From a virus, in IMG/VR virus record IMGVR_UViG_3300025115_000011, positions 1 through 61,355 of that record: DNA of 61,355 bases; one strand, 5' to 3'. Position numbers and translations under genes: made by a program. Positions 6,544 to 57,469 of the stretch are shown here, piece by piece; the stretch's first letter is position 1, and each line of letters opens with the position of its first letter. Below the pieces are notes generated by a model that worked only from the letters and a program-made list of their open reading frames with translations, was not told the DNA's origin and searched no databases.

Positions 6544-6587
6544 TCTATATGCAAAAATAATTTGCAAATATATTTAGGAGATTTATT

Positions 6588-6920: not shown

Positions 6921-6940
6921 TTAAAAGTTAAGTACAAAGA

Positions 6941-6968: not shown

Positions 6969-6991
6969 ACGGCCATAAATATTGGCATCGT

Positions 6992-7459: not shown

Positions 7460-7659
7460 AACTATTGAATAATTTATCGGTTCCTTTAACAAATGAGGAA
7501 TCGGAGATATTAGATAAGTTTGCTAACCTAACAGAGATTAGCAAGTCGTCTCTTGATCCTAGAGAGCAGTTACTAGCTAATCAGCTAGTAAACAAAGAAG
7601 TCTTAACTAGAAAAAATAATGGCCAGCAAATCATCTACAAAAAGAAAATCCGCTCCTAA
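7447..7659 (+). CDS. Small phage protein
   Basis: 70 residues (MRIVELLNNL...), helical with a basic C-terminus YKKKIRS. Its start overlaps the previous gene's end and its end overlaps the next gene by 41 bp, showing tight translational coupling. An ATAAATAC box sits directly before the ATG. The N-terminus resembles but does not match the MRAxEF tag. No known domain. Confidence 0.55.
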   Translation: MRIVELLNNLSVPLTNEESEILDKFANLTEISKSSLDPREQLLANQLVNKEVLTRKNNGQQIIYKKKIRS

Positions 7660-8110: not shown

Positions 8111-8119
8111 GGAACAAAC

Positions 8120-8827: not shown

Positions 8828-9309
8828 TGCGAGTTAAAGACGTAATTTTCGAAGCAGTATGGGACGAACCGATAAACGAAGCTGGATATGCTCGTGATTC
8901 AATGCGGCCAACTGGCGCTCCCTTAGATCCATATGCAGACACAGAGTCTGGTATCTTAGATGCAGAACCAGAAATGGAACTTTCGTCTAACGCAGATCAG
9001 AAGATGATTAACGCAGTTCGCAAGGTATGTGACCAGTATAAAGGACAAGGTCATGCTCAAGTCGAGTTACTACCATTCCTTACTAAGGTTATGGAGTATG
9101 TTAAGAAGCCAGTTAACCTCGCTGACTTAATTGCTATCAACAAGAAATCGCCAGAGATTCAAGCGTTAGTCGACACGATCGACGAAAAGAAAGTTAAGTT
9201 TAAGAACATGTCGGTTAAGAACGAAGATCCTGCTAAAGAACGTGCTAACGCACAAGCAAAACAAGCATCAACAGTGTCAGGTATGGCTTCAAGAGCATTA
9301 GGAAAATAA
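8827..9309 (+). CDS. Putative internal-head protein (degenerate tag MRVKDVIFE)
   Basis: 160 residues starting MRVKDVIFEA. Relative to MRAxEFLxE, the Arg, an acidic residue at position 5 and the (I)-F-E end are kept. The body is acidic, then Lys-rich, without enzymatic motifs. Its position between core-like proteins supports a head-internal role. Start overlaps the previous stop and the next gene begins immediately after its stop. Confidence 0.5.
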   Translation: MRVKDVIFEAVWDEPINEAGYARDSMRPTGAPLDPYADTESGILDAEPEMELSSNADQKMINAVRKVCDQYKGQGHAQVELLPFLTKVMEYVKKPVNLADLIAINKKSPEIQALVDTIDEKKVKFKNMSVKNEDPAKERANAQAKQASTVSGMASRALGK

Positions 9310-9705
9310 ATGCGGTTTAACGAGTTTGCAGTTAAAGAAGAATACCTCAAAGTAAAAGAGGACGACGACCAAAGTGCTCAATTAGCAGCAGTGTTGGTAT
9401 CAGTCCTTCAATTTATTAAAGGAAGAGCAGAAGACCAAAACGCTCCTGCTAAAATCAACACACAAAGTTTAATTAACTTAGTTAAAAACGTTGGTCATCC
9501 AAATTTTGGATATGCTGATTTAGTTGATGCTCACGAGCAAATGGATACCGTTAAAAATATGATCAAGTCTTTTAACAAAGATGAAGTTATATTACGCTCT
9601 GACGATGACGAAGAAGATGAAGAGCAAGTAGCAGATACCCCTGCCCAAAGTCCAGAAGATACAGTTGACTCTATGGCAAAAAGTGCATTAAACAAACGCC
9701 AATAA
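9310..9705 (+). CDS. Putative internal-head protein (degenerate tag MRFNEF)
   Basis: 131 residues starting MRFNEFAVKE, close to the MRANEF tag but lacking the (L/I)-x-E end. The C-terminal region is strongly acidic (SDDDEEDEEQ) and ends SMAKSALNKRQ, similar to the end of the preceding protein (SGMASRALGK), suggesting the two are related or co-assembling. Function not known. Confidence 0.5.
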   Translation: MRFNEFAVKEEYLKVKEDDDQSAQLAAVLVSVLQFIKGRAEDQNAPAKINTQSLINLVKNVGHPNFGYADLVDAHEQMDTVKNMIKSFNKDEVILRSDDDEEDEEQVADTPAQSPEDTVDSMAKSALNKRQ

Positions 9706-9743
9706 ATTTGTTTAATGGAGTGTAATATACTATAATTAATAGT

Positions 9744-10427
9744 ATGTTTACTCCAAAATTTAATTACACAAAACTAACAAGAGAGACAGTAGATGGTAAA
9801 CGCCACTACTGTACTCCTGATGGGAGAAAGCTCCCATCAGTAACTACTATTCTTGACAAAACAAAACCGGAAGAAAAAGTAAAAGCACTACAGGAATGGC
9901 GTGATAGAGTTGGGCATCAAAAAGCTCAACAAATCACTACAGAGGCGGCCTCTCGTGGCACCAGTATGCACTCGCATTTAGAGAATTACCTAAAAAATGG
10001 AGAGCATAAACGTATTGGAACAAACTTAGTGCATGATCAAGGTTACAAAATGGCTGACATCATTATTAACAATGCACTAGTTAATATTGATGAAGTGTGG
10101 GGTATGGAAGTTCCAGTTTACTTTCCGGGTTTATATGCTGGATCAACTGACTTAGCCTGCGTATTTAAAGGAAAGCCGTCAATTTGTGACCACAAACAAT
10201 CGAATCGACTTAAGAAAAAGGAGTATATCGAAGATTACCTACTACAGTTGGTTGCGTATGCATTGGCTCATAATGAAGTGCATGGAACTGACATTAAAGA
10301 GGGACATATTTTCATGTGTACTAAAGACTTACAATATCAACAATTTGATTTAACACCCAACATGTTTGATGAATATTTAGAAAAATGGCTTACTCGTGTG
10401 GAGCAATTTTACAAAATTACCGGTTAA
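9744..10427 (+). CDS. PD-(D/E)XK exonuclease-like protein
   Basis: 227 residues. LPSVTTILDKT near the N-terminus, TEAASRGTSMHSHLE, YAGSTDLACVFKGKPSICDHKQ and the following YLLQLVAYALAH follow the RecB/Cas4/MGME1-type nuclease order: the H in the helix, D of the GxTD strand, D-x-K of the core and QLxxY. D in STDLA and D-H-K in ICDHKQ are the likely metal-binding/catalytic residues. Probable role is DNA processing in recombination or replication. Confidence 0.75.
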   Translation: MFTPKFNYTKLTRETVDGKRHYCTPDGRKLPSVTTILDKTKPEEKVKALQEWRDRVGHQKAQQITTEAASRGTSMHSHLENYLKNGEHKRIGTNLVHDQGYKMADIIINNALVNIDEVWGMEVPVYFPGLYAGSTDLACVFKGKPSICDHKQSNRLKKKEYIEDYLLQLVAYALAHNEVHGTDIKEGHIFMCTKDLQYQQFDLTPNMFDEYLEKWLTRVEQFYKITG

Positions 10428-28364: not shown

Positions 28365-28676
28365 ATGCCTCACGCTGAACCAATCGAAAAAGTAAAAATT
28401 CAACAAAATATTAATGTCAAGCCGCCTTCGATGTACAAGGTAATCTATGTTAACGACAACGTAACTACTATGGAATTTGTGGTCGAGTCGTTAGTGGCAG
28501 TGTTTGAGTTGTCTCGAGCAGAAGCTGAAGAGATTATGATGATCATCCATGAGGAAGGGTCTGCTGTTGTTGCAGTTTTGCCTTACGAAATTGCTGAACA
28601 AAAAGGCGTCGAAGTTACAGTTCTTGCTAGGAATAACGGGTTTCCGCTAACCGTCCGATTGGAAATCGCCGAGTAG
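28365..28676 (+). CDS. clpS: ATP-dependent Clp protease adaptor ClpS
   Basis: 103 residues. MYKVIYVNDNVTTMEFVVE, IMMIIHEEGSAVVAVLPYE and a C-terminal PLTVRLE follow the ClpS fold. The pocket residues Asn-Asp before TTMEF and the His of IHEEG are retained. ClpS hands N-degron substrates (Leu, Phe, Tyr, Trp N-termini) to ClpAP. A phage copy, together with clpP at 46077, would let the phage steer host proteolysis. Confidence 0.93.
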   Translation: MPHAEPIEKVKIQQNINVKPPSMYKVIYVNDNVTTMEFVVESLVAVFELSRAEAEEIMMIIHEEGSAVVAVLPYEIAEQKGVEVTVLARNNGFPLTVRLEIAE

Positions 28677-31640: not shown

Positions 31641-32873
31641 ATGACATATCAGATTGGGTTTATTGGGTTGGGAAAATTGGGTTTAGCTTGTGCTCAAGTT
31701 ATAGCAGAGAAGTACGAAGTATTTGGTTATGATGTTGCACCACGCGACAGTAATTCAGTAATTGTTAAGCCAACTGTGCAAGAAGCAGTTACTGGTCGTG
31801 ACTTGATATTTATAGCAGTACAGACACCCCATGATCCTAAATTTGACGGTAGTGCGCCTATCTCTCATTTAGAGAAAAAGGACTTTGACTACGCAATAGT
31901 TAAAGATTGTTTGACTGAAGTAAACAAGTATGTAACTAAAGATCAGTTAGTCGTGTTGATATCAACCGTGCTTCCTGGAACAACACGGGATCAACTACGA
32001 GATTGCATAACAAATGCAAGATTTATTTACAATCCGTATTTGATTGCGATGGGGTCGGTGGAATGGGATATGGTCAATCCAGAGATGGTAATTATTGGTA
32101 CCGAGGATGGCAATGAGACTGGTGATGCTAAGATACTTATAGATTTCTATAAACCAATTATGCAGAACAACCCACGTTATGTAGTTGGAACATGGGATGA
32201 GGCAGAGTCCATTAAGATCTTTTACAATACCTTTATATCAGCTAAGGTTGGCATTGTGAATATGATTCAAGACGTAGCAATGCGTAATGGGAATATCAAT
32301 GTTGATGTTGTGACTAACGCATTAGCAAATAGTGATATTCGTATTATGAGTCCGAAGTACATGGTCGCTGGAATGGGAGATGCTGGACCATGTCATCCAA
32401 GGGATAATATTGCATTACGTTACCTTGCAGAGAAATTAGATTTAGGGTATGATTTGTTTGACACTATTATTAATGCTCGTGAAATACAAGCTAAGAACTT
32501 AGCTGATTTCCTAGTAGAAAAATCAGATTTTTACAATCTACCTATCTATATTCACGGCAAGGCGTATAAACCGAATGTTAATTTCTTAGATGGGTCGTAC
32601 AGCACTTTAATTGGCTATTACGTTGAGGAATCAGGAAAGAATGTAACATACCTAGATCCATTAACTGAAAAAACAGTTCCCGTTTCTGTTAAAGGTGTGG
32701 TGTTGTTGGCGCACAATGCACAAATTACATACGGATACACAGGTGAACAAAAAGTAGAAATATACTCTGATATTTTACCCGGTAGTGTAGTGGTTGACCC
32801 GTGGCGCAGAAGTACACAAAATCAATTCCCAGGAGTGACCCTTGTTCATTACGGAAATACACGAGGTAAGTAA
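31641..32873 (+). CDS. UDP-glucose/GDP-mannose dehydrogenase-like
   Basis: 410 residues. GFIGLGKLGLACAQVIAE is the NAD-binding Rossmann loop. YNPYLIAMGS and the helix around EAESIKIFYNTFISAKVGIVN match the family core. GMGDAGPCHPRDNIAL holds the catalytic Cys, with R where K is common. HGKAYKPNVNFLDGS is the C-terminal substrate motif. Predicted to oxidise an NDP-sugar to the uronate for surface polysaccharide or DNA sugar modification. Overlaps the next gene. Confidence 0.85.
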   Translation: MTYQIGFIGLGKLGLACAQVIAEKYEVFGYDVAPRDSNSVIVKPTVQEAVTGRDLIFIAVQTPHDPKFDGSAPISHLEKKDFDYAIVKDCLTEVNKYVTKDQLVVLISTVLPGTTRDQLRDCITNARFIYNPYLIAMGSVEWDMVNPEMVIIGTEDGNETGDAKILIDFYKPIMQNNPRYVVGTWDEAESIKIFYNTFISAKVGIVNMIQDVAMRNGNINVDVVTNALANSDIRIMSPKYMVAGMGDAGPCHPRDNIALRYLAEKLDLGYDLFDTIINAREIQAKNLADFLVEKSDFYNLPIYIHGKAYKPNVNFLDGSYSTLIGYYVEESGKNVTYLDPLTEKTVPVSVKGVVLLAHNAQITYGYTGEQKVEIYSDILPGSVVVDPWRRSTQNQFPGVTLVHYGNTRGK

Positions 32874-33784
32874 TGTTATCTAGCAATAATGAATGGGGAA
32901 AGTTGAAAGAGATTGTAGTAGGGTCAGCCTCGTATGCAAATTGGCCCCGCTATGATAAAGTTTTTAAGAAAGAATCCGAAAAAACAAGCTGGAAAGAAAC
33001 TCCTGTTCCTTCTGGGCCGGTTCCACAGTACATAATAGACGAAGCTAACGAAGACCTCGAGATTTTAAGTAATACACTAAAGGAGTTGGATGTTATAGTT
33101 CATCGTCCGTGGCATCAAAATTATCAGAATCTGGACGGAATGTATAATTATTGTCCTCGAGATCGATTGCTAGTCGCCGGTGAAGATATTGTTGATGTTA
33201 GCATGATGTACCCGTGCCGTAATATGGAAATTACTTCTTTGTGCGACGTTGTAGATCGTGCGAAAAAAGTACACGAAATGCCTAAGTATGATGATATGGT
33301 ATTAGATGCTGCTAATATTTGCAGGTTAGGCGATACTTGGCTTTATCTGTTAAGCGATAGTGGAAATGCTAAAGCATTGTATTGGTTGCGGGATCAATTT
33401 CCACACATTAATATTGAGTCTTGTAATTTTTATTCTGGTGTACATATCGATAGCACTATTACTCCGTTAAGAGAAGGGTTAGTATTGCTCAATGGTAGTA
33501 GGGTCAATGAAGGTAATTGCCCAATGACTTTTAGAGATTGGGAAAAAATTTATATCAATGACGTTGTTGCACAGGATTTTTATCAGTATCCGTATGCAAG
33601 TAAGTGGATCGCCCTAAATATGTTAAGTGTCGATGAAGAAACAGTTATTATCGACAAAAAGCAAACTGACATTATTCGAATGTTAGAGAAAAGAGGGTTC
33701 CGGTGTATCCCTCTTGAACTACGACACTCAAGAACGCTAGGCGGTGGATTTCATTGTGTAACACTGGACTTAGTAAGAGAATAA
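32873..33784 (+). CDS. Amidinotransferase-like protein (glycine amidinotransferase type)
   Basis: 303 residues. NEWGKLKEIVVG opens the fold, NYCPRDRLLV carries the conserved C-P-R-D, GVHIDSTITPLREGLVLLN the catalytic His with its Asp partner, and RTLGGGFHCVTLDL the catalytic Cys. These are the landmarks of arginine:glycine/inosamine amidinotransferases. Placement after a sugar dehydrogenase suggests guanidino transfer onto an amine of a sugar or amino acid. Confidence 0.85.
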   Translation: MLSSNNEWGKLKEIVVGSASYANWPRYDKVFKKESEKTSWKETPVPSGPVPQYIIDEANEDLEILSNTLKELDVIVHRPWHQNYQNLDGMYNYCPRDRLLVAGEDIVDVSMMYPCRNMEITSLCDVVDRAKKVHEMPKYDDMVLDAANICRLGDTWLYLLSDSGNAKALYWLRDQFPHINIESCNFYSGVHIDSTITPLREGLVLLNGSRVNEGNCPMTFRDWEKIYINDVVAQDFYQYPYASKWIALNMLSVDEETVIIDKKQTDIIRMLEKRGFRCIPLELRHSRTLGGGFHCVTLDLVRE

Positions 33785-46017: not shown

Positions 46018-46076
46018 TTAATACCCCCTTGTTATAATTATTTATGCAATCCACTCATTTAAAGGACGGAAGAAAA

Positions 46077-46658
46077 ATGACTTTAGTACCGATGATAATC
46101 GAAAAAACACAAAATGGTGAAAGAGCAATGGATGTTTGGTCTCGTTTGCTTAAAGACCGCATTGTTATGCTAACTACAGATGTTAATGAAGTGTCTGCCA
46201 ATCTTGTTATTGCTCAACTTCTATTCCTTGAGTCAGAAGATCCTGATAAGGAAGTGTTCTTTTACATTAACTCCCCTGGTGGAGAAGTAACCGCAGGATT
46301 GGCGATTCTCGACACTATGAATTTTATTAAGTGCGATATTCGAACTATTGTAATGGGGCAGGCCTGTTCAATGGGTAGTTTGCTTGCTAGTTCGGGAACT
46401 AAAGGTAAGAGAATGATTTTACCCAATGCGAGGCATATGATTCACCAGGTGTCATCGGGGGCAAAAGGCACAGCAATCGACATGAAAATTCAGCTCGAAG
46501 AAACACTAAAACTAAATCGATTGTTAACAGAAATATATGTTAAGAATACAGGAAAAACATACGAACAACTCGAAAAAGATATGTCTCGTGATTGTTTTAT
46601 GTCAGCGATCGAATCGGTCGAATATGGCCTAGCCGACAAAGTTATCACAACCAGATAA
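46077..46658 (+). CDS. clpP: ATP-dependent Clp protease proteolytic subunit ClpP
   Basis: 193 residues from ATG 46077 behind AAAGGACGGAAG; the in-frame ATG at 46044 has no ribosome site. FYINSPGGEVTAGLAI, GQACSMGSLLASSG (catalytic Ser) and ARHMIHQVSSG (catalytic His) are canonical, and a later Asp (EKDMSRDCFMS) completes the triad. It assembles with host or phage ATPase partners to degrade proteins. The last 30 bp overlap an antisense endonuclease gene. Confidence 0.95.
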   Translation: MTLVPMIIEKTQNGERAMDVWSRLLKDRIVMLTTDVNEVSANLVIAQLLFLESEDPDKEVFFYINSPGGEVTAGLAILDTMNFIKCDIRTIVMGQACSMGSLLASSGTKGKRMILPNARHMIHQVSSGAKGTAIDMKIQLEETLKLNRLLTEIYVKNTGKTYEQLEKDMSRDCFMSAIESVEYGLADKVITTR

Positions 46659-47285
46659 CTTGCAGTTTGTGCCATGAAATCTAGACAGGATATGTGGAGC
46701 TACAACTTTTCCGCAATGCGGACACGGCTGCTTCGGAGTTAACAACCTAGAAGCAGACATTTTCTGTCTAGTTTCTAAGCTAACTTGGCCGATATTGCCT
46801 TTATTCCACGCTTCTTGTCCTTTTCTTCCGCCAACAAACCCTGACGCAACTGCTCGTTCTTTGGCTTGTACACGTTTTTCATCAGACCATCGTTTACCGT
46901 AATTTGCATTGTTTTCTCCTGAGACGTCGTGGGTAGAGTGCCATTCTTTTTTCGATTTAGCTATTCGAGCCCTTGCGTCTGGCATTAATATTTTTCCAGA
47001 GGTTCCGTCACCTCCGTCTGTTAAGTTAAGCAATATCCCGGTACCCAAATCTTTTCGGCCCCACCATTTAATAAGGCGACGCTCTAAAGCCAGCGCCCCG
47101 ATTTCAGACAACTTTGTCTCGAGTTTTATAATCAATGATTGGTTCTTAGGAACAGAGACGTTATGTTTTTTTAATAGCCTGCTGCCTTTTCCTTTACCGA
47201 TATAGTAAGGAGTTCCTGCTTTTGCTGTTATACTATCTTTACTGCGTAAGTACGCATAGACATAATAAATATTATCGCTGGACAT
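46629..47285 (-). CDS. GIY-YIG-like homing endonuclease with zinc finger
   Basis: 218 residues. IYYVYAYLRSKD...TPYYIGKGKGSRLL is a GIY-YIG variant, and ALERRLIKWWGRKDLGTG carries the Glu/Arg helix. A NUMOD3-like segment (ENNANYGKRWSDEKRVQ) and a terminal C2HC finger (CPHCGKVVAPHILSRFHGTNC in part) follow. AAGGAGG sits before its ATG. Its 3' end overlaps clpP. Confidence 0.85.
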   Translation of the reverse strand: MSSDNIYYVYAYLRSKDSITAKAGTPYYIGKGKGSRLLKKHNVSVPKNQSLIIKLETKLSEIGALALERRLIKWWGRKDLGTGILLNLTDGGDGTSGKILMPDARARIAKSKKEWHSTHDVSGENNANYGKRWSDEKRVQAKERAVASGFVGGRKGQEAWNKGNIGQVSLETRQKMSASRLLTPKQPCPHCGKVVAPHILSRFHGTNCKLSGCDNFVG

Positions 47286-47397: not shown

Positions 47398-48075
47398 ATG
47401 CGTCTTTTTGAACTACAACAAACTGTTAGTAAACCACAAGCTATTGATAATATCATATCAGTTATCCTTAGGGATTGCCAACCGTATCTACAGTTGATAG
47501 GTGGGTTAACTGATCCATCCAGATATTTGCTCAGAGGTATGGTAGAGATACCGTCGAAAGATCAATGGCACAAGTATACACAACCTTACACTACACACCC
47601 AGACCGTAAGTTCAGAGACACAAATGCACGGGTTGGGCAATTAGCAGATGACTGGTTTTTAAAAACAATCGGATGGCGTGCCAGAACTAACAATGCGCTA
47701 TTCTGTGCCGGCTTTGCTAGTGCAACACACGACTATGGTGAGACCTGCGCGATATTTCCAATTGGTAATATTGAGTATCTGTGGAGTGAAAAGGTACTCG
47801 ACTTAACGTTTGATTTACACCAGCTTGTTTATTTTGGCGACGAGGGGACTCCAGATAAACTAAAACCACAACAAGATACTGAATCGTTAGCAAAGAAAGT
47901 TAATGCGTTACTCAGTAAAGGTGCATGGCACTTTAATGAAGGATTCGACTTATACTGGAAAAAGCATAGACGTAAAGAAATGATTATCCGTTGCCAAAAA
48001 TACTACGCTATTCCGCTAGAGAGAAATATGGATAACATTAGTTTTGACGAAGTATTGATGAGAGCAAGTCAATGA
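47398..48075 (+). CDS. ADP-ribosyltransferase-like protein (first of array)
   Basis: 225 residues starting MRLFELQQ, only loosely like the array tag. It keeps the paralogue landmarks: RYLLRGM (NAD-binding Arg), NNALFCAGFASATHDYG, FPIGNIEYLWS, and RRKEMIIRCQKYYAI with the putative catalytic Glu. It lies 3-5 bp after an AATAAATA box without ribosome site and overlaps the next tagged gene by 4 bp. Confidence 0.58.
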   Translation: MRLFELQQTVSKPQAIDNIISVILRDCQPYLQLIGGLTDPSRYLLRGMVEIPSKDQWHKYTQPYTTHPDRKFRDTNARVGQLADDWFLKTIGWRARTNNALFCAGFASATHDYGETCAIFPIGNIEYLWSEKVLDLTFDLHQLVYFGDEGTPDKLKPQQDTESLAKKVNALLSKGAWHFNEGFDLYWKKHRRKEMIIRCQKYYAIPLERNMDNISFDEVLMRASQ

Positions 48076-48467
48076 GAGCAACTGAATTTTTAACCGAATC
48101 TATCATTAAAACTAATAAAGGGTGGCAGCATTCCGGGTTTGGATATAAAAATAATCCAGTTTATCCATTGCCTCGGTGGAGTGTATTTAATAGTGGGTCA
48201 AGGAATAAAGAAGGGTCGTGGGAGGATATATTACACTACTTTCGATTCTTAGACGACAATTATGCAACTGCAATGCTTGATATAACAGGTGATGAGATAG
48301 CAACTGTTTTGTGTTTGCAAGGACACACTGACAAAAAACAAGAATTAGAAAAAATGAAAATTGAACTTAAACTTAAGAACTCTAATTTTCAAACATGGTC
48401 TGAAGTCTTTAACAAGTTCAAAGAAAATAGTAAAAAAGAACGAGCAACTAGATTGGGCGGAATATGA
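48072..48467 (+). CDS. Putative packaged protein (MRATEFLTE tag)
   Basis: 131 residues. The tag MRATEFLTE is followed by SIIKTNKGWQHSGFGYKNN. The remaining sequence is aromatic-rich then strongly Lys/Glu helical, with no catalytic motif seen. Overlaps both neighbours by 4 bp. Part of the coupled array. Confidence 0.55.
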   Translation: MRATEFLTESIIKTNKGWQHSGFGYKNNPVYPLPRWSVFNSGSRNKEGSWEDILHYFRFLDDNYATAMLDITGDEIATVLCLQGHTDKKQELEKMKIELKLKNSNFQTWSEVFNKFKENSKKERATRLGGI

Positions 48468-49078
48468 GAGCAACTGAATTTTTAAGAGAAGACATCGAAG
48501 ACCAGCAAAAAGTTTGGTCAATGATACAACAAAATTGCCAACCGTTCATAAATGAGATCGGCGGGGTTGAGAAATTATTTTCTTTGCCTATATATCGAGG
48601 AAGTTTTGATTCTCAAAACAACACTAGCATAAGAGAAATTCCAGTATTGCCAAATCGTAAACCACGAAATACACAGGCAGAGTGGCACAAAGCTGCCGAC
48701 GAATGGTTTGCATCTACTACTGGTGTCCTTTTCCGCAGTCACGCAATTTTTGCAGATGGAAACAAGGAAGTAGGCGATAGTTACGGCCGTGGATACAGTG
48801 AAATAGTTATCCCAATCAGACAATTTAACTATTGCTGGTCTGATATTATCCGTGATATGACTCTCACATTAGAACGCACACCTCGTGAAGACGATGAAAG
48901 TGAAGGTGATTTTGTGTGGAATATCTTAGACGAAGGTGGTTACAGGTTTAATAGTGGTTTGGCTGACGCTGCACAATCTGAATGTGAAATTATGATCAAC
49001 TGTGAAAAAGTATATCTCATTAATCCGGGCTTCTTCTATATGATAAAAAACAGATTGCAGGACGGGTCAATTAAATGA
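48464..49078 (+). CDS. ADP-ribosyltransferase-like protein (MRATEFLRE tag)
   Basis: 204 residues. Tag MRATEFLRE, then IYRGSFD with the Arg, FADGNKEVGDSYGRGYSEIV as the Ser/Gly segment, IRQFNYCWSD, and AQSECEIMINCEKVYLI, where E-x-E precedes the strand as in arginine-specific ADP-ribosyltransferases. Paralogue of 2226 and 49075. Target in the host unknown. Confidence 0.6.
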   Translation: MRATEFLREDIEDQQKVWSMIQQNCQPFINEIGGVEKLFSLPIYRGSFDSQNNTSIREIPVLPNRKPRNTQAEWHKAADEWFASTTGVLFRSHAIFADGNKEVGDSYGRGYSEIVIPIRQFNYCWSDIIRDMTLTLERTPREDDESEGDFVWNILDEGGYRFNSGLADAAQSECEIMINCEKVYLINPGFFYMIKNRLQDGSIK

Positions 49079-49752
49079 GAGCAAAAGAATTTTTAAAAGA
49101 AGAATACACACCAAAGGATATTGAGGATTTCTTTACTAACTGCTCGGAGTATTTTTCTTATAATAAAAATCCTTTAGTTAATATGCTATACCGCGGTGAC
49201 TACGGTAACATTCGCAAGGACAATTTTTGGATGAACCAACGCAATGTGTTACAAGGCCGCAAACCAGTTGACACTGACGAGTTTGTACATACCATCTTAA
49301 ATGATTTGTTTTCTACCGCGTTTAATTTTCCGTTCCGCAGCGGGATGATGTGTTCTGGATCCCCTGGAGAAGCAAGTCAATACGGCCGCGTGTCTATTGT
49401 TATTCCGTGCAATGGGTACACACTTTGTTACTCACCGAAGTATGAGGATTTATTCAAATCAATACCATCTACGGTGTACGATTACTTAGAGTACACTCAT
49501 TATGAAGTACACGACGGTACTCCAGAGCAAGCTAACGCAGAGAAAAGGATACGCTCAATTATTACCAGATTGTTTAAAGAAGGCAACTATGTAGCTGGAC
49601 CACAGCATACAAACGATGCTGCGATGTCAACCAACGAAGTAATGATATACCCAACTGATTACTCAGAATTGCAATACTACGCATTCTCCGAACAGTTTTG
49701 GAGCGCAACAGTAGTGCCGATGATTAGAGAGAGATTTTATGCGAGCAAGTGA
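49075..49752 (+). CDS. ADP-ribosyltransferase-like protein (MRAKEFLKE tag)
   Basis: 225 residues. Tag MRAKEFLKE, MLYRGDYG with the NAD-binding Arg, MMCSGSPGEASQYGRVSIVI as the Ser strand, and MSTNEVMIYPTDYSELQYYA with the STxxE-like catalytic region. Overlaps the next gene by 14 bp. Confidence 0.62.
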   Translation: MRAKEFLKEEYTPKDIEDFFTNCSEYFSYNKNPLVNMLYRGDYGNIRKDNFWMNQRNVLQGRKPVDTDEFVHTILNDLFSTAFNFPFRSGMMCSGSPGEASQYGRVSIVIPCNGYTLCYSPKYEDLFKSIPSTVYDYLEYTHYEVHDGTPEQANAEKRIRSIITRLFKEGNYVAGPQHTNDAAMSTNEVMIYPTDYSELQYYAFSEQFWSATVVPMIRERFYASK

Positions 49753-50533
49753 TTTTTTAACTGAACTCGAAGTTACTCCTTATCAGTATAGAGACTTAGG
49801 GATTAATAAAGCAATGGACTTTCTCAATGGACATTGCAGGCAAGCATTGGCTACTATTAAAAATCCAATTTGGCGTGGAATGAAAAATCACAAAGAGGAC
49901 ATTGTCTTCGCTGACCCGTCAACCGGTAAACGTATGTCTCAGAATACTACAAATCAGTATACAGCATTAATCGATTCTTCTCCGTATTTCAAGGGTTGGC
50001 CAAAACGTAGTAGTAGTTTTGTATGTTCAAGTAACCGAAGTTATGCCTCACAGTTTTCTAAAGGGTATGATGCAAGTTCTACTCTGTATGCTATTTTCCC
50101 GTTTGATGGAGTTAAGATTGCAGTATGCCCAACTAGAGATATGTGGCAAGTTCCAATTAGTATCCCTGCGTTTAACAAAAAGTTCAACCATGGCGGCTGG
50201 GGAGACGACTTGGATATGTTTAACGGTTGGCTAACAAACGAAGTTGGCATTACTGCTGACTCTGAAGGTAACCTTAAATTTGACGGGTATCAGTTAGGGT
50301 TATTTGCAAAAGATCACAACTTGCAAAAACACGAGATTGTTCCGATATTACAGAAAGCATTGTCACCTCAGAGAGCAGGGTTTAAGTTAGTTACCATTGG
50401 TGAGTTTGCGTCTGGACAGTTTAACGATAACGAGCTGTGGATTGGCGGCCCGGTAATTTGTATTCGCGAACCTCTATACAAACAGTTTTTAAATGCTTAT
50501 GAAAAACAAGGACAAATAAATGCGAGCAAGTGA
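49739..50533 (+). CDS. ADP-ribosyltransferase-like protein (MRASDFLTE tag)
   Basis: 264 residues, the most divergent paralogue. Tag MRASDFLTE, PIWRGMKNH (Arg), SSFVCSSNRSYASQFSKGY (Ser segment), and NDNELWIGGPVICI (Glu strand). An insertion between Ser and Glu regions makes it longer. Cleavage after the tag would expose Leu, a ClpS-type N-degron. Overlaps the next gene by 14 bp. Confidence 0.58.
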   Translation: MRASDFLTELEVTPYQYRDLGINKAMDFLNGHCRQALATIKNPIWRGMKNHKEDIVFADPSTGKRMSQNTTNQYTALIDSSPYFKGWPKRSSSFVCSSNRSYASQFSKGYDASSTLYAIFPFDGVKIAVCPTRDMWQVPISIPAFNKKFNHGGWGDDLDMFNGWLTNEVGITADSEGNLKFDGYQLGLFAKDHNLQKHEIVPILQKALSPQRAGFKLVTIGEFASGQFNDNELWIGGPVICIREPLYKQFLNAYEKQGQINASK

Positions 50534-51164
50534 TTTTACTAACGAAGAGCAATTAACTGAGATACCATCGTCGTTTGTTAATAAGGTAGTAGACAAAACA
50601 CAATGGGGAGCACCTGGCACAGGTCACAAGACTCCTCCAAAAGGACAAACTGCATCAGTTTGGCAACACATGTCCGACCCAACAACTGTAGTTAAGCTTG
50701 TTGGCGGCGGTGCTATGAAAAACCTTAAAGATAAACATAAGCAGGCAGCAATTGCATTTGTGGATTTTCTTGTACATCACGGTAAAGAAAGCCAGCATCT
50801 TCCGATTGTGCACGGTATTAACGTAGATGATCCTGAGGTAGTGCAAATCAAAGTCGAAGCACTAAAACCTTTTAAAGGCTATCGATATGAGCAGCTCGCA
50901 GGTTCGTTAGCAGATTTAGCTGATGTTCCGACTAGTCCTCGGTATCAAGACTTGGTTAACGAACATCTTAAAGGGCTAGGATTACACAAGAAAAATTCAG
51001 CAGCTGGTATAGTAAAATGTGTGATGTTGTTAAACAAGTATGCAAAAGAGTATTCAGATAAGTATAATTTAGACAAGTTTGTACTGGATTTGCATGAAGG
51101 TAATTGGATGGTAACAAACGACGGAGTTATTGTTGCCGTTGATCCGTGGTTTGCAGGGTGGTGA
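50520..51164 (+). CDS. Kinase-fold-like protein (MRASDF tag)
   Basis: 214 residues. N-terminus MRASDFTNEEQLTE carries the tag with the L-T-E site five residues later. TTVVKLVGGG could hold the ATP-binding Lys. VLDLHEGNWMVTNDGVIVAV followed by DPWF resembles the kinase catalytic loop (D-L-H-x-x-N) and the metal-binding Asp (DFG-like DPW) of small phosphotransferases. A packaged protein or small-molecule kinase is the best reading. Confidence 0.52.
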   Translation: MRASDFTNEEQLTEIPSSFVNKVVDKTQWGAPGTGHKTPPKGQTASVWQHMSDPTTVVKLVGGGAMKNLKDKHKQAAIAFVDFLVHHGKESQHLPIVHGINVDDPEVVQIKVEALKPFKGYRYEQLAGSLADLADVPTSPRYQDLVNEHLKGLGLHKKNSAAGIVKCVMLLNKYAKEYSDKYNLDKFVLDLHEGNWMVTNDGVIVAVDPWFAGW

Positions 51165-51165
51165 T

Positions 51166-51600
51166 ATGAAAGCCTCTGAATTTATTACTGAAGACGATGT
51201 TATTAAAATTAAATTGCCAGACGAGAGCATAGCAAAGGCGTGGATCGAGAAAGTATACAAGATGTATCCATACACCTGGGAGAATAACCACGTTATGGTA
51301 TGGGGAGAAGGCGAAGCACAGCAGTTAGCAATGTTTGAACTTGTACCAAGTAAATCTAAGAAAAATGCAGTAGAAGTAAAATGGTTTAGTGCATACCCAA
51401 TGAGAGCAGGTGTGGGATCACGTGCGATGGGTGAGTTGCAAAAAATAGCAAGAGAAGATGGTATTGCCTTAACATTATTTCCCTGGGACCATGGACAAGT
51501 TAGCCAAAGTAAGTTAATGAAGTTTTACAAAGGTGTTGGGTTTAAGCCAACTACAAAAGCATCTAAGAATATGTATTGGGATCCAAATGAGATTTCTTGA
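51166..51600 (+). CDS. GNAT acetyltransferase (MKASEFITE tag)
   Basis: 144 residues from ATG 51166, directly after the previous stop; the longer frame starting at 51130 lies in the previous gene. Tag MKASEFITE. PMRAGVGSRAMGELQKIA is the acetyl-CoA pyrophosphate loop (R/Q-x-x-G-x-G/S), and KLMKFYKGVGFKP the C-terminal GNAT motif. May acetylate host proteins after injection. Confidence 0.75.
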   Translation: MKASEFITEDDVIKIKLPDESIAKAWIEKVYKMYPYTWENNHVMVWGEGEAQQLAMFELVPSKSKKNAVEVKWFSAYPMRAGVGSRAMGELQKIAREDGIALTLFPWDHGQVSQSKLMKFYKGVGFKPTTKASKNMYWDPNEIS

Positions 51601-52054
51601 GATCATGCAAAACACTAGAAATCTGCGAATTGAGAAATTAGTAGAGTGGGCTAAGGAAAGAAAGCAGTTAACAGAATCTGATGACTTCTCAGTTGAGGTC
51701 AATGAGTATAGACAATTTATAGAGAAGTTCTTGACTGATGTTTGTGATCTTAAAGTAGGTAACGAGTATTATCCTGTGATGTTGTTCACCCAACCATCAG
51801 CTAAAATAATAGAAGTTAATGTTCCGGCAAACTCGATAACCCTTGTGGGAATAGACAAACAAGGAGATTTCGGTTTTTTGTTTAAAGGTCGAAGAGTTAA
51901 GTTTCCTAAGTACTACGAAGAGCAAGACGATCAACTTCCTTATTTTATGTCTACTACCGTGTTTGTTGGGCCAAGTGAAGTAAATCAATTTTTTACTATG
52001 CTTAATTTACAATTTGCAGGTCGATGGAAGCTAATACAGAAGGAAGTTAAATGA
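51587..52054 (+). CDS. Putative packaged protein, unknown
   Basis: 155 residues from ATG 51587 (MRFLEIMQNTRNLRI), a degenerate tag. An in-frame ATG at 51533 lies deep in the GNAT gene. Beta-rich middle (VGIDKQGDFGFLFKGRRVKF), helical end. No known domain. Overlaps neighbours by 14 and 4 bp. Confidence 0.5.
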   Translation: MRFLEIMQNTRNLRIEKLVEWAKERKQLTESDDFSVEVNEYRQFIEKFLTDVCDLKVGNEYYPVMLFTQPSAKIIEVNVPANSITLVGIDKQGDFGFLFKGRRVKFPKYYEEQDDQLPYFMSTTVFVGPSEVNQFFTMLNLQFAGRWKLIQKEVK

Positions 52055-52716
52055 GAGCAGACGAATTTTTAACTGAAGGACGAGGGCATCCTGTTATTGT
52101 GGTCGACGTCCAGCCCGAGTACTCTGGTATGAACGACGGTGAAGAAAGTTCGGTGTTCCCAGAAATCATAAAATTCGTAGCAATCAACCAAACCGGACCT
52201 GTGCTAATGTTTGTTAATGCTGAGGACCAAGGAATGTCGGGCGACACAGTATTTGATGTACAACGATACTGGGAAGACACTCTGCTTGAAATGGGTTACG
52301 GTAAACCAGAAGAAGAATATTGGGACGAAGATGATGAATATCATTATACTGAAGCAGAGAGTCCAATTGATTGGCGCCGTTATGAGATTGTTGATAAAGG
52401 ATATGGATTCTTCAGAAGTTTCATGGATCAAGGGGTAGACGACGCTACAATTATTAAAATGATCCGCTACCTGTATCAACATAAATTAAACGATGCAAGG
52501 CAGCTAGATTATGATGATTATGTTGCAATAATGGGCAGTGACAGATTGCAGGATGAAAACTTTACCATTAACTGGACAAGCGTTGCACAATTAAAACGAT
52601 TTAACGGTGCTTATATTGTTGGTGGTGGTAGAAACGAATGTTTGCGTGAAGTTGAGTTGCTAATGAATGCGTTTAACATTAAATATCGTCGCATCGACTC
52701 TTTAGTCTACGGGTAA
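52051..52716 (+). CDS. Isochorismatase-like hydrolase (MRADEFLTE tag)
   Basis: 221 residues. Tag MRADEFLTE, then HPVIVVDVQPEYSG with the first-strand Asp of cysteine hydrolases, and YIVGGGRNECLREVELLMNA followed by FNIKYRRID matching the G-x5-C-V-x-x-T-A helix with the catalytic Cys. An acidic insertion (EEEYWDEDDEYHYTE) is unusual. May hydrolyse a host metabolite such as isochorismate, nicotinamide or a signalling compound. Confidence 0.65.
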   Translation: MRADEFLTEGRGHPVIVVDVQPEYSGMNDGEESSVFPEIIKFVAINQTGPVLMFVNAEDQGMSGDTVFDVQRYWEDTLLEMGYGKPEEEYWDEDDEYHYTEAESPIDWRRYEIVDKGYGFFRSFMDQGVDDATIIKMIRYLYQHKLNDARQLDYDDYVAIMGSDRLQDENFTINWTSVAQLKRFNGAYIVGGGRNECLREVELLMNAFNIKYRRIDSLVYG

Positions 52717-52725
52717 ATACATATT

Positions 52726-53112
52726 ATGAGAGCAAATGAATTTTTAATAGAGTATGTAACAAAAGAAGACCTTAGGGCTCTAACGATTTACTTAGATCGT
52801 TTTTATAGTACACTTGGGTTAGATATCGAGTTTACCAGACATTTCTTGGACCGAGTAAACGATCCAAGGAACGGTAAGGATATCACAGTCCAAGAACTAG
52901 CAGATTTATTCAAGAAAGAATATGAGAAGTACGGTCCTGTAATAGCAAAGCTTCCAGACGACTCTCAAGCGGTACTAAAGGATTTATCTACTAAAATTAA
53001 TGTACCGTTTGCTATAGACGATAATCCGAAGTCAAAAGATAAAGACATTGTGCCAGTTACAGTAATGCGTAAAAAAGATTTTAGAACGTCGAATCGAGAG
53101 TTTAAGGTATGA
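52726..53112 (+). CDS. Putative packaged protein (MRANEFLIE tag)
   Basis: 128 residues. Tag MRANEFLIE followed by Tyr, which would be an N-degron after cleavage. EFTRHFLDRVNDPRN and VTVMRKKDFRTSNREF flank a Lys-rich helix. The H-F-x-x-R-V pattern is reminiscent of RelE/ParE-like small nucleases, but this is weak. A TAAATA box lies before the start. Confidence 0.5.
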   Translation: MRANEFLIEYVTKEDLRALTIYLDRFYSTLGLDIEFTRHFLDRVNDPRNGKDITVQELADLFKKEYEKYGPVIAKLPDDSQAVLKDLSTKINVPFAIDDNPKSKDKDIVPVTVMRKKDFRTSNREFKV

Positions 53113-54239
53113 GAGCAAAAGAATTTTACATTGAACACACACTCCTTGAGGCCGCATACCAAGGCAACATCGGTATGATGGAGATGTTTAAGTTTAAACA
53201 GAAAGCCTCGCCGGAACAATGGGCAGAGCTACAAAAACTAATCAGTAAAAAACTGTTTAAAGCAGCATGGACGTTAATACAAAGTGTTACAGGTGTAACG
53301 TTGCATCAAAAAGGGCTTACAGAAGGCGGCTGGGCAAGCACACTAACGCAAGGTACAAAGATTACGCCGCAGTTAGTTCAGTATGTAATGAAACTCTTAC
53401 AGCAAGAATTTGTGCCATTACTTAACACCTTCTTAAAGCGTAATGGGTTAGGTGAAACTGAAGTTTCTGCCCCAGGCGGTAGTGCTACTTATTACGAACG
53501 AGATTTAGAAAAGCAACCCAACAAAGAATACGGCGATGTTGATGTTCAGTTTCATATCCCACGCATTGAAGGAACAACTAACAATGCAAACATGAACATC
53601 TACAAAAAAGCAATTAAAGAGTTTTGCGACGGCACAAACAATTACTCAACTGATAACGGCACTAATATTATTTTGCGTGTTGGACAAGACTATGTCCAGG
53701 TTGATCTGGTTTATTCATATTATGAAAACAAAGAATGGACAAATGCATTGCGCCCGGAGTGGAATTTAAAAGGGGTTTTGGCGAACTCACTATATAGTTC
53801 ATTCGGGGAAGCATTAAGTATTAGTTTTGGTGGCGGCCATGGTGTCCAAGTTAAAACCCAAAATGGCCAAGTTGTTCCGTTTAGAACAGTTAAAGATGTT
53901 AAACTACATACAATCACTAATAATCCGAAAACGTGGGCAGTTGATATTGCAAAATACTTTGGTGGTAAGATGAACTCGCAACTACAAAAGTATCCGGGAC
54001 TACTAGATGAAGTTCGTGTTAGCGACATTGTTAATTCGTTTAAGGGCATTGCACAAAGTTTAAATAGGCCAGAGCTACTACAACAAACAAAAGACATCTA
54101 TCTTGCTAAAATAGAAAAGGCTGCAAGTAGTTCTAAGTTCGATAAAGCGGCTACACCGGAGATGCAAGCAAAAGCAGAAAAAACAAAGCATATGCTCTTA
54201 ACTAAGTCGCAAGAAATTGCACAACTATTTGGAGTTTAA
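53109..54239 (+). CDS. Nucleotidyltransferase-fold protein (MRAKEFYIE tag)
   Basis: 376 residues. Tag MRAKEFYIE with L-L-E shortly after. EYGDVDVQFHIP holds the D-x-D pair of Pol-beta-type nucleotidyltransferases, and YVQVDLVYSYY the third Asp. The C-terminal part is helical. It is one of two such proteins here (other at 1456). Could modify RNA ends, tRNA or proteins; ligand unknown. Confidence 0.62.
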   Translation: MRAKEFYIEHTLLEAAYQGNIGMMEMFKFKQKASPEQWAELQKLISKKLFKAAWTLIQSVTGVTLHQKGLTEGGWASTLTQGTKITPQLVQYVMKLLQQEFVPLLNTFLKRNGLGETEVSAPGGSATYYERDLEKQPNKEYGDVDVQFHIPRIEGTTNNANMNIYKKAIKEFCDGTNNYSTDNGTNIILRVGQDYVQVDLVYSYYENKEWTNALRPEWNLKGVLANSLYSSFGEALSISFGGGHGVQVKTQNGQVVPFRTVKDVKLHTITNNPKTWAVDIAKYFGGKMNSQLQKYPGLLDEVRVSDIVNSFKGIAQSLNRPELLQQTKDIYLAKIEKAASSSKFDKAATPEMQAKAEKTKHMLLTKSQEIAQLFGV

Positions 54240-54240
54240 A

Positions 54241-54654
54241 ATGAAAGAACTATTAGTAATATTTTTCTTAGTGCTATCAGGGCAGGTGCAGGCAGAACCG
54301 TGGACATTACCTATCGCGGCAGTAGTTGACGGTGACACAATTAAAACACAATTACCTCTTCCTACTCCATTAGATAAAGTGTCAATTCGTATCTTAGGTA
54401 TTGATACTCCTGAAAAAGGTAGTAGAGCAAAGTGCGAAAAAGAAGCAGCATTAGCATTGAAGGCATCAGCTAAAATCAAGCAACTTGCAAAAGGTCATAA
54501 GACCATGACAGTTACTGAGTACAAGTGGGATAAATTTGGTGGCAGGATTGACGCCGTAGTTGTAATTAATGGAGTTAATGTTGGCGATGCTCTAATTAAA
54601 GATGGATTAGCAAGACCTTACTTCGGTGAGAAGAAACAAAGTTGGTGCGAATAA
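54241..54654 (+). CDS. Thermonuclease-like secreted nuclease
   Basis: 137 residues from ATG 54241. A signal peptide (KELLVIFFLVLSGQVQA) is followed by AAVVDGDTIKTQ, IRILGIDTPEKG and KWDKFGGRIDAVVVING, the staphylococcal-nuclease landmarks including Arg, Asp and Glu of the active site. It lacks the capsid tag and is instead predicted to be exported, within an otherwise tagged array. May degrade DNA in the periplasm, for example from competing phages. Overlaps the next gene at TAATG. Confidence 0.85.
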   Translation: MKELLVIFFLVLSGQVQAEPWTLPIAAVVDGDTIKTQLPLPTPLDKVSIRILGIDTPEKGSRAKCEKEAALALKASAKIKQLAKGHKTMTVTEYKWDKFGGRIDAVVVINGVNVGDALIKDGLARPYFGEKKQSWCE

Positions 54655-55160
54655 TGAGAGCAAATGAATTTATCAACGAAATAAACATCGATAATCATGA
54701 TGGTTGGGGACAAACTCCAAACAATGCCAGCGTTGATTACATGGGATTAAAGGTTTTAATGAAGCCGTCTATCTTTCTGAGGTTGGCTGCAGAACTGCCA
54801 CTTGACGACGAAGCTAGAGAAAAAATTGCAGTAATGGTAGCACACGCTAAAAAAGGTGGCTCGTTTGGTGCACCAACGTTGTACGTGTCTGTTCCTGAAG
54901 AGTGGGAAGATAATGTGTTTAAACCGCACACTATAGGTAGAGTAAAAAGTCACGAAGGTCGGCACCGAATGAACGCACAGTTAGAACTAGAAGGCGACGT
55001 GCCAGTTGAAACCCACATCTTTATCCCTTACTTTAAAACAAAGAACTGGGCAAAAGATTATCAGAACGATTACACCCCCGAGATTGTTAGCAGATTGCAA
55101 CAGCAAATGGAATCAGAAGACGGGTATATAATTGTTACTAACCCGCTATTTACAATCTAA
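54654..55160 (+). CDS. ParB/sulfiredoxin-like protein (MRANEFINE tag)
   Basis: 168 residues from ATG 54654 (an in-frame start at 54642 lies in the nuclease gene). Tag MRANEFINE. GRVKSHEGRHRMNAQLELEG has the E-G-R-H-R motif of ParB/Srx-type folds, which bind nucleotide. DNA-binding, nuclease or phosphotransfer roles are all possible. Confidence 0.52.
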   Translation: MRANEFINEINIDNHDGWGQTPNNASVDYMGLKVLMKPSIFLRLAAELPLDDEAREKIAVMVAHAKKGGSFGAPTLYVSVPEEWEDNVFKPHTIGRVKSHEGRHRMNAQLELEGDVPVETHIFIPYFKTKNWAKDYQNDYTPEIVSRLQQQMESEDGYIIVTNPLFTI

Positions 55161-55171
55161 TAAATATAGCT

Positions 55172-55561
55172 ATGAGAGCAAATGAATTTTTAACTGAAGA
55201 ACAACTTGATGAACTAAACTGGAAGAATGCATTGATAACTGGAGCATTGGCCGCAACAACTGCTCTGGGATCTATGTCACCTGCCCATGCAGGATCTGGT
55301 GATATGGATTTGTATAACGCAATATATAATCGAGTATACCAAGAGCAATTAGTTAAACACAAAGACCCAGATGGTCAACTTAGATTAGACCGTCGGGATC
55401 AAAATAGAATTAAAGCAATAGCTCAAGATAAAGCTCAAGCAGAATTCCAACAACGGGTATCACAATTAGATATCCGAGGGTCTCAGGTAAAGCAAACTCA
55501 AAGCAATTTTCCATCTCAACGATCCGAAGTTCGCCGAGCAGCAGATTTTGATAAATTCTAA
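55172..55561 (+). CDS. Tagged protein with internal hydrophobic segment
   Basis: 129 residues. Tag MRANEFLTE, then an acidic stretch and ALITGALAATTALGSMSPAHA, a hydrophobic segment ending in a signal-peptidase-like AHA. Cleavage at the tag would leave a protein starting close to a signal-peptide-like region, so export after injection is conceivable. The rest is basic and helical. A TAAATATA box precedes it. Confidence 0.52.
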   Translation: MRANEFLTEEQLDELNWKNALITGALAATTALGSMSPAHAGSGDMDLYNAIYNRVYQEQLVKHKDPDGQLRLDRRDQNRIKAIAQDKAQAEFQQRVSQLDIRGSQVKQTQSNFPSQRSEVRRAADFDKF

Positions 55562-55564
55562 ATA

Positions 55565-57469
55565 ATGAGAGCAAAAGAATTTTTCTTCGAGTCGATACTA
55601 ACTGAGCTTAATATGAGCCCGTCGTATCTGCAACGATTTGCAGATAAGATACAAGGTGCTAAAGCAGGTATCGAATTCGAAATGATTGTACCTGGACAGT
55701 TTGGGGACAGTAATAATCAGGATATGGAATTAGATTGGGATCAGGATCGCCCCGCCGACGATATACAAGAGATCATTGATTTCTTTAGTGAAGATACTGG
55801 GTACCAATCATCCGACAGAGATCTAGCACAATTAGAAGAAAAACTGAGACAGCAGCATTGGGAGTGGTTAGAAGATAAGATCAACGAAGGATGGTACCAT
55901 TCAGATGATGGCCCTGAATTCTTTAAGGAGTACTTCAGAGAAAACTGGTACGACGAAGAATCCGACGGCGACTTTGATAAAGCAGCAGACGACGCATGGG
56001 ACTTACGTGGGCGAGCATTTGATGATGCATACGATGCGTTTAGAGAGCAGTACGACCAGGATTTTACTGATGCAGACTGGTGTAAAGAGCAACGGATTAC
56101 TATGTCAGAAATACACAACAATTATGGTGTGTATTGGCCGCATGTAACTTTTACCGGCGGCGATGATTTAGATGATATAGCGGATAGTTTCCGTAACGGC
56201 ATTAAGCGAAGTGTAGAAACAAGTAGCACATACCACAGCGGAACGAAATCAACAACCGCATACACAATCGAACCAGATGCAAGTTTAGAGCCAGACGACG
56301 ATTATTCACATTCTGGTTTAGAATTTGTTAGTCCCCCTTTACCATTACCGGAAATAGCAAAAGACCTAAAGAATGTAATGCAATGGGCTAAAAACAACAA
56401 TTGCTACACAAATGAGTCATGCGGTCTGCATATGAATGTGTCTGTGCCAAATTTCCATATAGCAGCATTAGACTATGTTAAATTTGCGCTGTTTATCGGT
56501 GATAACTACATATTAGAACAGTTTGGTAGAACTGCGAACTCATATTGCAAATCTGCGATTATAAAAATTAAAGACAAAGCCATTAAACGCCCTGACTTAG
56601 CAGCACAGGCCATGAATATGTTAAAAGGTCAATTAAACAGTATAGCCGGAAGTATAATACACGAGAACCACACCGACAAATATACATCTCTCCATATACA
56701 TGACAACTATGTAGAAGTAAGAAGTCCTGGCGGCGATTGGTTAAGCGAACCAGTTGACAAATTGGTAACATTGTTGTATCGTATTACTGTGGCGTTAGAT
56801 GCAGCTTGTGATCCAGAAAAGTATAAAGATGAGTATGCTAAAAAGTTTTACAAATTAATATCATCACAAAGCAATGACGATATTACCCAGTTATTTGCAC
56901 AGTATGCGTCTGGACAAATTAACAAAGATGCACTTAAAGTAGCATGGGCAGATAAAGTAATGAACAGTCCTGCACCAACAAATAAATCAGCTAGAGCAAT
57001 GCCGTTAGCAAATAAAATTATGCGAGGAAATACTAGTAAGAGTTGGTGGAGTGTGGGGTTCTTTAACCCAAATCGTGGAGAAATTATTAGGACTGAAAAG
57101 TTTGCTGCTAAGACCGAAGCAGAAGCAATTAGTTATGCTCGAACACAGTGGCAAATTCCGTCGGGCAGTTTCCCGGACCAATATTTTGAAGTTAAAAGAC
57201 TCGGACCATATGCAGAACCAACACTTGCTGGAAAGAGTAAACAGGAAACCGGCCAAGCAATTCAAGCAGCAAGAAATGTAGTTAATTCAACTGGTAATGT
57301 TCGGTGGGCAATTCGAGATGAAAATACAGGCGATGTATTGCATACTTTTTGGAACCGGGCAAGTCAGAACGACGCTAACCAATATGCAAGAGATTGGTTA
57401 ACAAGGAACAATAACGGGGTAACCAGAGTAGAAGTTTCTCCAATCCCCTTAGAACCAGGAGAATTTTAA
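55565..57469 (+). CDS. Amidoligase-like protein (MRAKEFFFE tag)
   Basis: 634 residues. The tag MRAKEFFFE is followed by SILTE. GAKAGIEFEMIVPG (about residues 36-49) matches the G-x-E-F-E motif, TNESCGLHMNVSVPN the C-G-x-H-x-N motif, and YVEVRSPGGDWL the E-x-R motif of Amidoligase_2 (glutamine-synthetase-like COOH-NH2 ligases). Residues about 50-200 are a strongly acidic insertion, and two small repeats lie at the C-terminus (WWSVGFFNPNRGEIIRTEKF and WAIRDENTGDVL). It overlaps a gamma-glutamylcyclotransferase-like gene, a pairing known for this family. Confidence 0.68.
   Translation: MRAKEFFFESILTELNMSPSYLQRFADKIQGAKAGIEFEMIVPGQFGDSNNQDMELDWDQDRPADDIQEIIDFFSEDTGYQSSDRDLAQLEEKLRQQHWEWLEDKINEGWYHSDDGPEFFKEYFRENWYDEESDGDFDKAADDAWDLRGRAFDDAYDAFREQYDQDFTDADWCKEQRITMSEIHNNYGVYWPHVTFTGGDDLDDIADSFRNGIKRSVETSSTYHSGTKSTTAYTIEPDASLEPDDDYSHSGLEFVSPPLPLPEIAKDLKNVMQWAKNNNCYTNESCGLHMNVSVPNFHIAALDYVKFALFIGDNYILEQFGRTANSYCKSAIIKIKDKAIKRPDLAAQAMNMLKGQLNSIAGSIIHENHTDKYTSLHIHDNYVEVRSPGGDWLSEPVDKLVTLLYRITVALDAACDPEKYKDEYAKKFYKLISSQSNDDITQLFAQYASGQINKDALKVAWADKVMNSPAPTNKSARAMPLANKIMRGNTSKSWWSVGFFNPNRGEIIRTEKFAAKTEAEAISYARTQWQIPSGSFPDQYFEVKRLGPYAEPTLAGKSKQETGQAIQAARNVVNSTGNVRWAIRDENTGDVLHTFWNRASQNDANQYARDWLTRNNNGVTRVEVSPIPLEPGEF

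Follow-up and report, generated by a model that had tools for sequence, protein, structure and literature searches.

The stretch of viral DNA analysed here, positions 1 to 61,355 of the IMG/VR record IMGVR_UViG_3300025115_000011 (the window), encodes an array of proteins whose shared N-terminal start, hereafter the tag, is very probably a capsid-targeting sequence of the phage T4 type, placed on a large and exchangeable set of cargo proteins. By our own gene calls, 15 of the 94 genes in the window match M[RK]A.[ED]F at the start, against a chance expectation of 0.004 (from amino-acid composition) or 0.011 (from the frequency of the same string within proteins), and the complete pattern M[RK]A.[ED]F[LI].E opens 12 genes against ~4e-5 expected. 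All 15 starts listed in a preliminary description of this DNA were found where it had placed them; the open reading frame (ORF) at 3770 starts with GTG, and ORF 51166 starts with MKA, not MRA. Twelve of the tagged genes lie within one tightly packed plus-strand run of 15 genes (47398–57469), in which neighbours mostly overlap by 4 or 14 bases.

The conservation ends at residue 9. Relative entropy amounts to 3.3–4.8 bits in tag columns 1–3, 5, 6, and 9 and to 1.7–2.1 bits in columns 4, 7, and 8, and from column 10 on it is ~1 bit, the random level; behind the common leader the proteins are mostly unrelated and belong to different families. The (L/I)xE motif ends exactly at residue 9 in 12 of the 15 tagged proteins. 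When aligned at the cut, Phe6, Leu/Ile7, and Glu9 of the window tag correspond to Phe7, Ile8, and Glu10 of the T4 leader; the tag is therefore taken as a capsid-targeting sequence, putatively cut after residue 9 or 14. In T4, ten leader residues suffice for packaging, with residues 4 and 7 mattering most for targeting, and residues 8 and 10 for cutting (PMC9026906). The T4 leader MKTYQEFIAE, to which the tag had been likened in the preliminary description, is correct for two T4 genes, but the Alt leader differs, being MELITE, cut at ITE-6 (PMC5694885).

Three proteins (50520, 53109, and 55565) had been singled out as deviating at the first site yet carrying a later (L/I)xE, and all three do so, with LTE, LLE, and LTE, respectively, each ending at residue 14. 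An (L/I)xE ending at this residue is found in 3/3 deviants and in 1/12 canonical members (Fisher p ~0.009). Among 199 distinct tagged ORFs, a back-up site at residues 10–17 is present in 7 of the 37 without (L/I)xE at residue 9 and in 7 of the 162 with it (p 0.006), a comparison valid for back-up sites and not for the canonical frequency, because the canonical members were partly selected by a pattern requiring residue 9. Setting aside V/M/F-x-E as possibly cuttable leaves 7/15 with a back-up site (p 1.7e-5, by a grouping chosen post hoc). Such an excess of back-up sites tends to indicate selection for cleavage.

The same design recurs in other phages with different letters. Orthologous cargo proteins in G001 start with MRAKEFTVE, MRAQEFINE, and MRANEFIVE, and also with MKSSEFITE, MKINEIILE, and MFLTELFDTE. 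In Atu_ph07, the tandem ADP-ribosyltransferase (ART)-like proteins gp053–gp062 and a few distant genes start with M(R/K)WxxLxE, for which the genome has 13 sites against 0 for the reversed pattern. The huge phage LR756508 has M(K/R)(L/F)Kx(L/I)LxE, and the starts in LR756502 include MKLHRYNSFINES. G013 and G021 hold MKTFAQYLTES, and G013 also MKTLKDYLTEA, both near the T4 leader. Within the ART-like family, tag similarity tracks the genome (permutation p 5e-5), and similarity of the mature part tracks the family. The mature part of 49739 scores on average 172 against the group-B members of other phages and 39.5 against its own paralogs, whereas its tag scores 1.7 and 19.5, respectively, so that the tag behaves independently of the cargo. 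By these comparisons the tag is modular, one lineage's tag standing on unrelated cargo, and homologous cargo elsewhere carrying the tag of that lineage.

An S77 (gp21-type) protease was matched in 4/4 annotated relatives (Phosso, PA5oct, Vibrio phage 2.275.O, and Atu_ph07; E <1e-21), and likewise in T4, the positive control of the search. Fourteen records were picked by the DNA pattern of the tag, a choice favouring large records and those with several matches; they hold 41 tag matches in total, against 0 for the reversed pattern, and S77 is present in 7/7 of those of at least 147 kb and in 0/7 of the shorter ones. The gp21-type protease presupposed by the preliminary description is thus encoded in the annotated relatives and in the large tag-bearing records, but was not matched in the window, which is a fragment. 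G013 (345 kb) has the S77 protease together with a tagged ortholog of 52051 (54% identical). In the major capsid protein of seven tag-bearing records and one further relative, an (L/I)xE is located at residue 42–43, directly before the conserved part, in the place of LTE-65 of T4 gp23. A T4-like head module (portal, small core protein, protease, scaffold, and gp23-like capsid protein with (L/I)xE) is found in PA5oct, Atu_ph07, and tag-bearing records. From S77 in the relatives and tag-bearing records, and from the capsid-protein site, a protease cutting at (L/I)xE may fairly be inferred for this phage group. The S77 match in LR756508 (W06:156507-158102) falls into two pieces, each in a 576-residue open frame, which suggests that this protease carries an insertion or is an enlarged form.

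Homology marks the window as a fragment of a jumbo phage with PA5oct, RaK2, and Atu_ph07 among its relatives. Homologs of the 81-residue ORF at 569 and of the ORF at 8120 occur in jumbo phages like PA5oct, RaK2, Atu_ph07, and Phosso, and the region 569–10427 keeps the gene order of PA5oct gp259–gp244, most of which are marked as detected by electrospray ionization tandem mass spectrometry (ESI-MS/MS). The tagged genes 2226, 2898, and 3770 are located inside this syntenic cluster. In PA5oct, the gene for gp333 immediately follows the portal gene, as that for gp67 does in T4; gp333 starts with MKINDIITE and is marked as detected in virions by mass spectrometry (MS); gp246 (MKIKDILVE) is also marked as MS-detected, and the scaffold-like gp330 (ILNE at 11) is not. 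The Atu_ph07 tag array falls, by block-level placement only, within the MS-rich block of coding sequences (CDS) 31–76, for which 29 proteins were identified in virions (PMC6102473).

The T4-type capsid-targeting function proposed in the preliminary description is supported by S77 in the relatives and in the large tag-bearing records, the same-design tags on homologous cargo, PA5oct gp333, and the back-up sites. In the proposed mechanism, the leader residues MRAxEF would bind the inner scaffold core during head assembly, building the tagged protein into the prohead. A gp21-family prohead protease would then cut after the Glu of (L/I)xE, which is residue 9 in most tagged proteins and residue 14 in three, leaving the mature protein inside the head, and at infection the cargo would enter with the DNA and act early on the host. 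Sequence comparison supports this interpretation well up to packaging and trimming; by analogy with T4, the tagged proteins would be present in virions with their tags cleaved, and injection of the cargo is likely. We are evenly divided on a more general proposal, that each jumbo lineage of the T4 superfamily may have a nine-residue address of its own, which its particular scaffold and protease recognise, and that any gene gaining the address would become head-delivered. If so, packaged effectors could be listed for each genome from nothing but the N-termini, and the tags would be specific to a lineage and could not be exchanged between lineages.

Several observations weigh against the capsid-targeting function. 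Over the whole PA5oct genome, proteins with an N-terminal (L/I)xE are not significantly enriched among those detected in virions (p 0.076 to 0.41); with a stricter motif, one of three motifs tried, 5/7 proteins are virion-detected (p 0.008). The virion evidence is confined to PA5oct proteins with related tags (gp333 and gp246). No PF03420 protease was matched in the 61-kb window or in the 155-kb G001, and no head genes were found in the window; because the window and G001 are both fragments, the missing S77 match is not used as evidence of absence. The co-occurrence of S77 and tag was counted without a size-matched background; of three further large contigs, retrieved for unrelated purposes (337, 215, and 154 kb), only the 337-kb one has S77. 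It is also conceivable, though rather unlikely, that the tag is head-targeting and cleaved while the cargo, instead of comprising injected effectors, plays a structural or scaffold-like role by filling or organising the head. Such a role would suit PA5oct gp333, located where T4 has its core protein gp67, and small acidic proteins encoded in the virion cluster, which show the same tag design; the operon, however, holds enzyme-like proteins (amidoligase, kinase motifs, GNAT-like, and ART-like) with no evident structural role, and T4 Alt and the T4 internal proteins, which have such leaders, get ejected (PMC9026906).

Since N-termini can hold localisation or degradation signals, and since ClpP (46044–46658; PF00574, 1.8e-73) and ClpS (28365–28676; PF02617, 2.2e-28) are encoded in the window, the tag might be a signal of this kind with no connection to heads, such as one recognised by the phage ClpS/ClpP. 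We consider this very unlikely: a gp21-type cut agrees with the (L/I)xE rule and with the back-up sites, the tags adjoin the portal gene and occur in the virion clusters of relatives, and S77 is present in all large tag-bearing records. It is still harder to credit that the shared start serves translation initiation or recombination, as a sequence acting at the DNA or RNA level and copied among genes. The overlaps between genes would agree with it, and the narrow codon choice in the window (TTT for Phe in 15/15, AGA in 12/15, and GCA in 13/15) fits a recent spread by copying. No conserved bases were seen, however, upstream of the 15 tagged starts; the tag codons vary (AGA/CGA/AAA; GCA/GCT/GCC; GAA/GAG/GAT; TTA/ATT/ATC/ATA), Glu5, Leu/Ile7, and Glu9 being kept with different codons; and in other genomes the design of the peptide persists although codons and residues differ widely. 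The probability that the tag reflects mere common ancestry of duplicated genes is negligible, for although a single family accounts for five of the operon or cluster genes, the remaining tagged proteins share nothing past residue 9. Simple duplication was rejected, as most tagged proteins are unrelated behind this residue and 49739 pairs with proteins of other phages, not with its tagged paralogs. The tagged proteins had been described as otherwise unrelated, which is true of most of them but not of 2226, 48464, 49075, and the more distant 49739, which form one family with 47398.

The putative cargo operon, all on the plus strand, begins at 47398, as the preliminary description had it, but with a gene (47398–48075; MRLFELQQT) that lacks the exact tag, though family comparison makes it a homolog of tagged ART-like proteins; 51587 and 54241 are the other two members without the exact tag. 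In the following starts, a slash marks the predicted cut. ORF 48072–48467 (MRATEFLTE/S; 131 residues) belongs to no known family. ORFs 48464–49078 (MRATEFLRE/D; phrog_11975/15932) and 49075–49752 (MRAKEFLKE/E) belong to the ART-like family, and 49739–50533 (MRASDFLTE/L) to its group B (phrog_12810), with a mature part nearest to Atu_ph07 and LR756508 proteins. They are followed by 50520–51164 (MRASDFTNEEQLTE/I), with the site displaced to residue 14 and kinase-fold motifs, by the GNAT-like 51166–51600 (MKASEFITE/D), and by 51587–52054 (MRFLEIMQN). ORF 52051–52716 (MRADEFLTE/G) has tagged orthologs in L264 and L323 (54–59% identity), and 52726–53112 starts with MRANEFLIE/Y (phrog_23027, phrog_14518). 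ORF 53109–54239 (MRAKEFYIEHTLLE/A), also with its site displaced to residue 14, is nucleotidyltransferase-like by eye (GDVDVQ) and has an ortholog in G001 (68%) with the tag MKINEIILE. The untagged 54241–54654 has an SNase domain (PF00565) and a signal-peptide-like start, and looks like a secreted nuclease. The run ends with 54654–55160 (MRANEFINE/I), which has tagged orthologs in G001, L091, and L317, 55172–55561 (MRANEFLTE/E), and the amidoligase 55565–57469 (MRAKEFFFESILTE/L; PF12224), whose site is again displaced to residue 14. An endonuclease-like ORF on the minus strand (46629–47285; GIY-YIG type by eye) adjoins the operon and has several homologs across G001, one of them beside the array of G001; it is a possible driver of cassette exchange.

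In the cluster syntenic to PA5oct virion genes, the tagged ORFs, likewise on the plus strand, are 2226–2873 (MRANEFLAE/M; ART-like family), 2898–3773 (MRAKDFITE/K), and 3770–4906 (MRASEFITE/S), the last with orthologs in L001 and L003 that start with MKISEIIVE and MKISEIITE. On the same strand, 8827–9309 has the tag variant MRVKDVIFE/A (orthologs, MKINEIIVE and MKIKEIISE), and 9310–9705 the possible variant MRFNEFAVK, with relatives starting with MKISEIICE and with PA5oct gp246 at the same place. The plus-strand ORF 1456–2229, nucleotidyltransferase-like by eye, has the conserved start MxLxE/GGN; its family occurs in many viral contigs, and the Atu_ph07 and Phosso homologs begin directly with MGG, as if leaderless.

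The family of 2226, 47398, 48464, 49075, and 49739 (phrog_11975/15932/12810) looks, by eye, ART-like. In an alignment of 20 members from five phages, columns of G, R, and E do not vary at all and the R preceding the G hardly varies, and the motif order R, S/T-rich, E (YRG, SxSxxC(T/S)(T/S), and E(I/V)(M/W)) is conserved, as judged by eye. Profile searches of Pfam and the PDB with 2226, 48464, 49075, and 49739 gave no match supporting an ART, and an hhalign comparison of the family with T4 Alt, ModA, and ModB was negative (7.7% probability). Because the model of 48464 is poor (predicted local distance difference test, pLDDT, 57) and gave no meaningful PDB match in Foldseek, the ART assignment is kept at the motif level. 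The amidoligase 55565 scores 44.3 bits with PF12224, against a gathering cut-off of 22. In 50520, a glycine loop and DxHxxN and D(P/F) motifs are present, and Foldseek returned kinases at a probability of up to 0.99 but with E >0.001 from a model of pLDDT 59; with low confidence, this protein may have a protein-kinase-like fold. ORF 3770 is assigned to DUF6267, and the GNAT-like match of 51166 is below the Pfam cut-off; none of the other tagged proteins could be firmly assigned. Searches of viral contigs with 55565, 53109, or 48464 as single queries recovered no relatives, and a megablast of the operon against phage records gave no match.

Among other tag-bearing records, L319, L320, L321, L322, and L326 have a recurring pair of small tagged genes (MRAxEFITE...; ~125–140 residues), located near a single-stranded DNA-binding-like gene and conserved across tag-bearing records. 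In Atu_ph07, gp053 (L027:24485-26821, minus strand) is a fusion protein in which an ART-like domain and a P-loop kinase are joined to two gp483-like domains; in front of each of these two stands LTELFDT or LNELFDT, resembling the gp483 start MLLSELFDT. The protein gp053 is possibly a polyprotein cut internally by the head protease. Elsewhere in the window, the region 31641–33784 encodes a UDP-glucose/GDP-mannose dehydrogenase (PF03721) followed by a gene that is amidinotransferase-like by eye, with no Pfam match.

The full-text literature searched, whose scope leaves out most subscription papers, yielded no description of comparable tag arrays for these phages, and capsid targeting did not come up when a 2026 jumbo-phage review was searched by term. 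If the capsid-targeting interpretation is true, a short N-terminal motif would directly flag early effectors that are injected, anti-defence proteins among them, within the unknown genes that make up the bulk of jumbo phage genomes. It would mean operon-scale, exchangeable cargo in several dialects across a large, mostly uncultured phage group, and the co-evolution of scaffold, protease, and cargo tag would become testable.

The head-loading leaders known from T4 belong to Alt and to a small number of internal proteins. The leader of the internal proteins (MKTYQEFIAE, cut by gp21) resembles the window tag in being short and N-terminal, with Phe and then (I/L)xE, on otherwise unrelated proteins, and the two systems are also alike in having a gp21-family protease in the same phage group and clustered, variable cargo genes (PMC9026906). 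In contrast, the window tag is one residue shorter and different in sequence (MRAxEF), several lineage-specific tags occur, and the window has ~15 such genes in 61 kb, not a few, with enzyme-like cargo. With Alt, a head-packaged ADP-ribosyltransferase, the likeness lies in the G001 cargo start MFLTELFDTE, which resembles MELITELFDED of Alt, and in the ART-like motifs of some window cargo; the window tag, however, is not the Alt leader, and the ART identity of the window cargo is at the motif level only. Ejection proteins of the phiKZ/SPN3US type are similar in that many head proteins have propeptides removed by an S77-family protease (PMC5694885), but those propeptides are mostly >100 residues, whereas the window leaders have 9 to 14, as in T4. 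Polyvalent and MuF-fused head effectors also include enzymatic domains, ARTs among them, inferred to be head-packaged (PMC9503650), in their case either fused with head proteins or in the form of giant multidomain proteins, whereas here separate small proteins would carry a detachable tag. What appears to be new is a probable T4-type mechanism at operon scale, richer in enzyme-like cargo and with lineage-specific tags, and the different labels of the same design in related giant phages look like a general cargo-delivery system.

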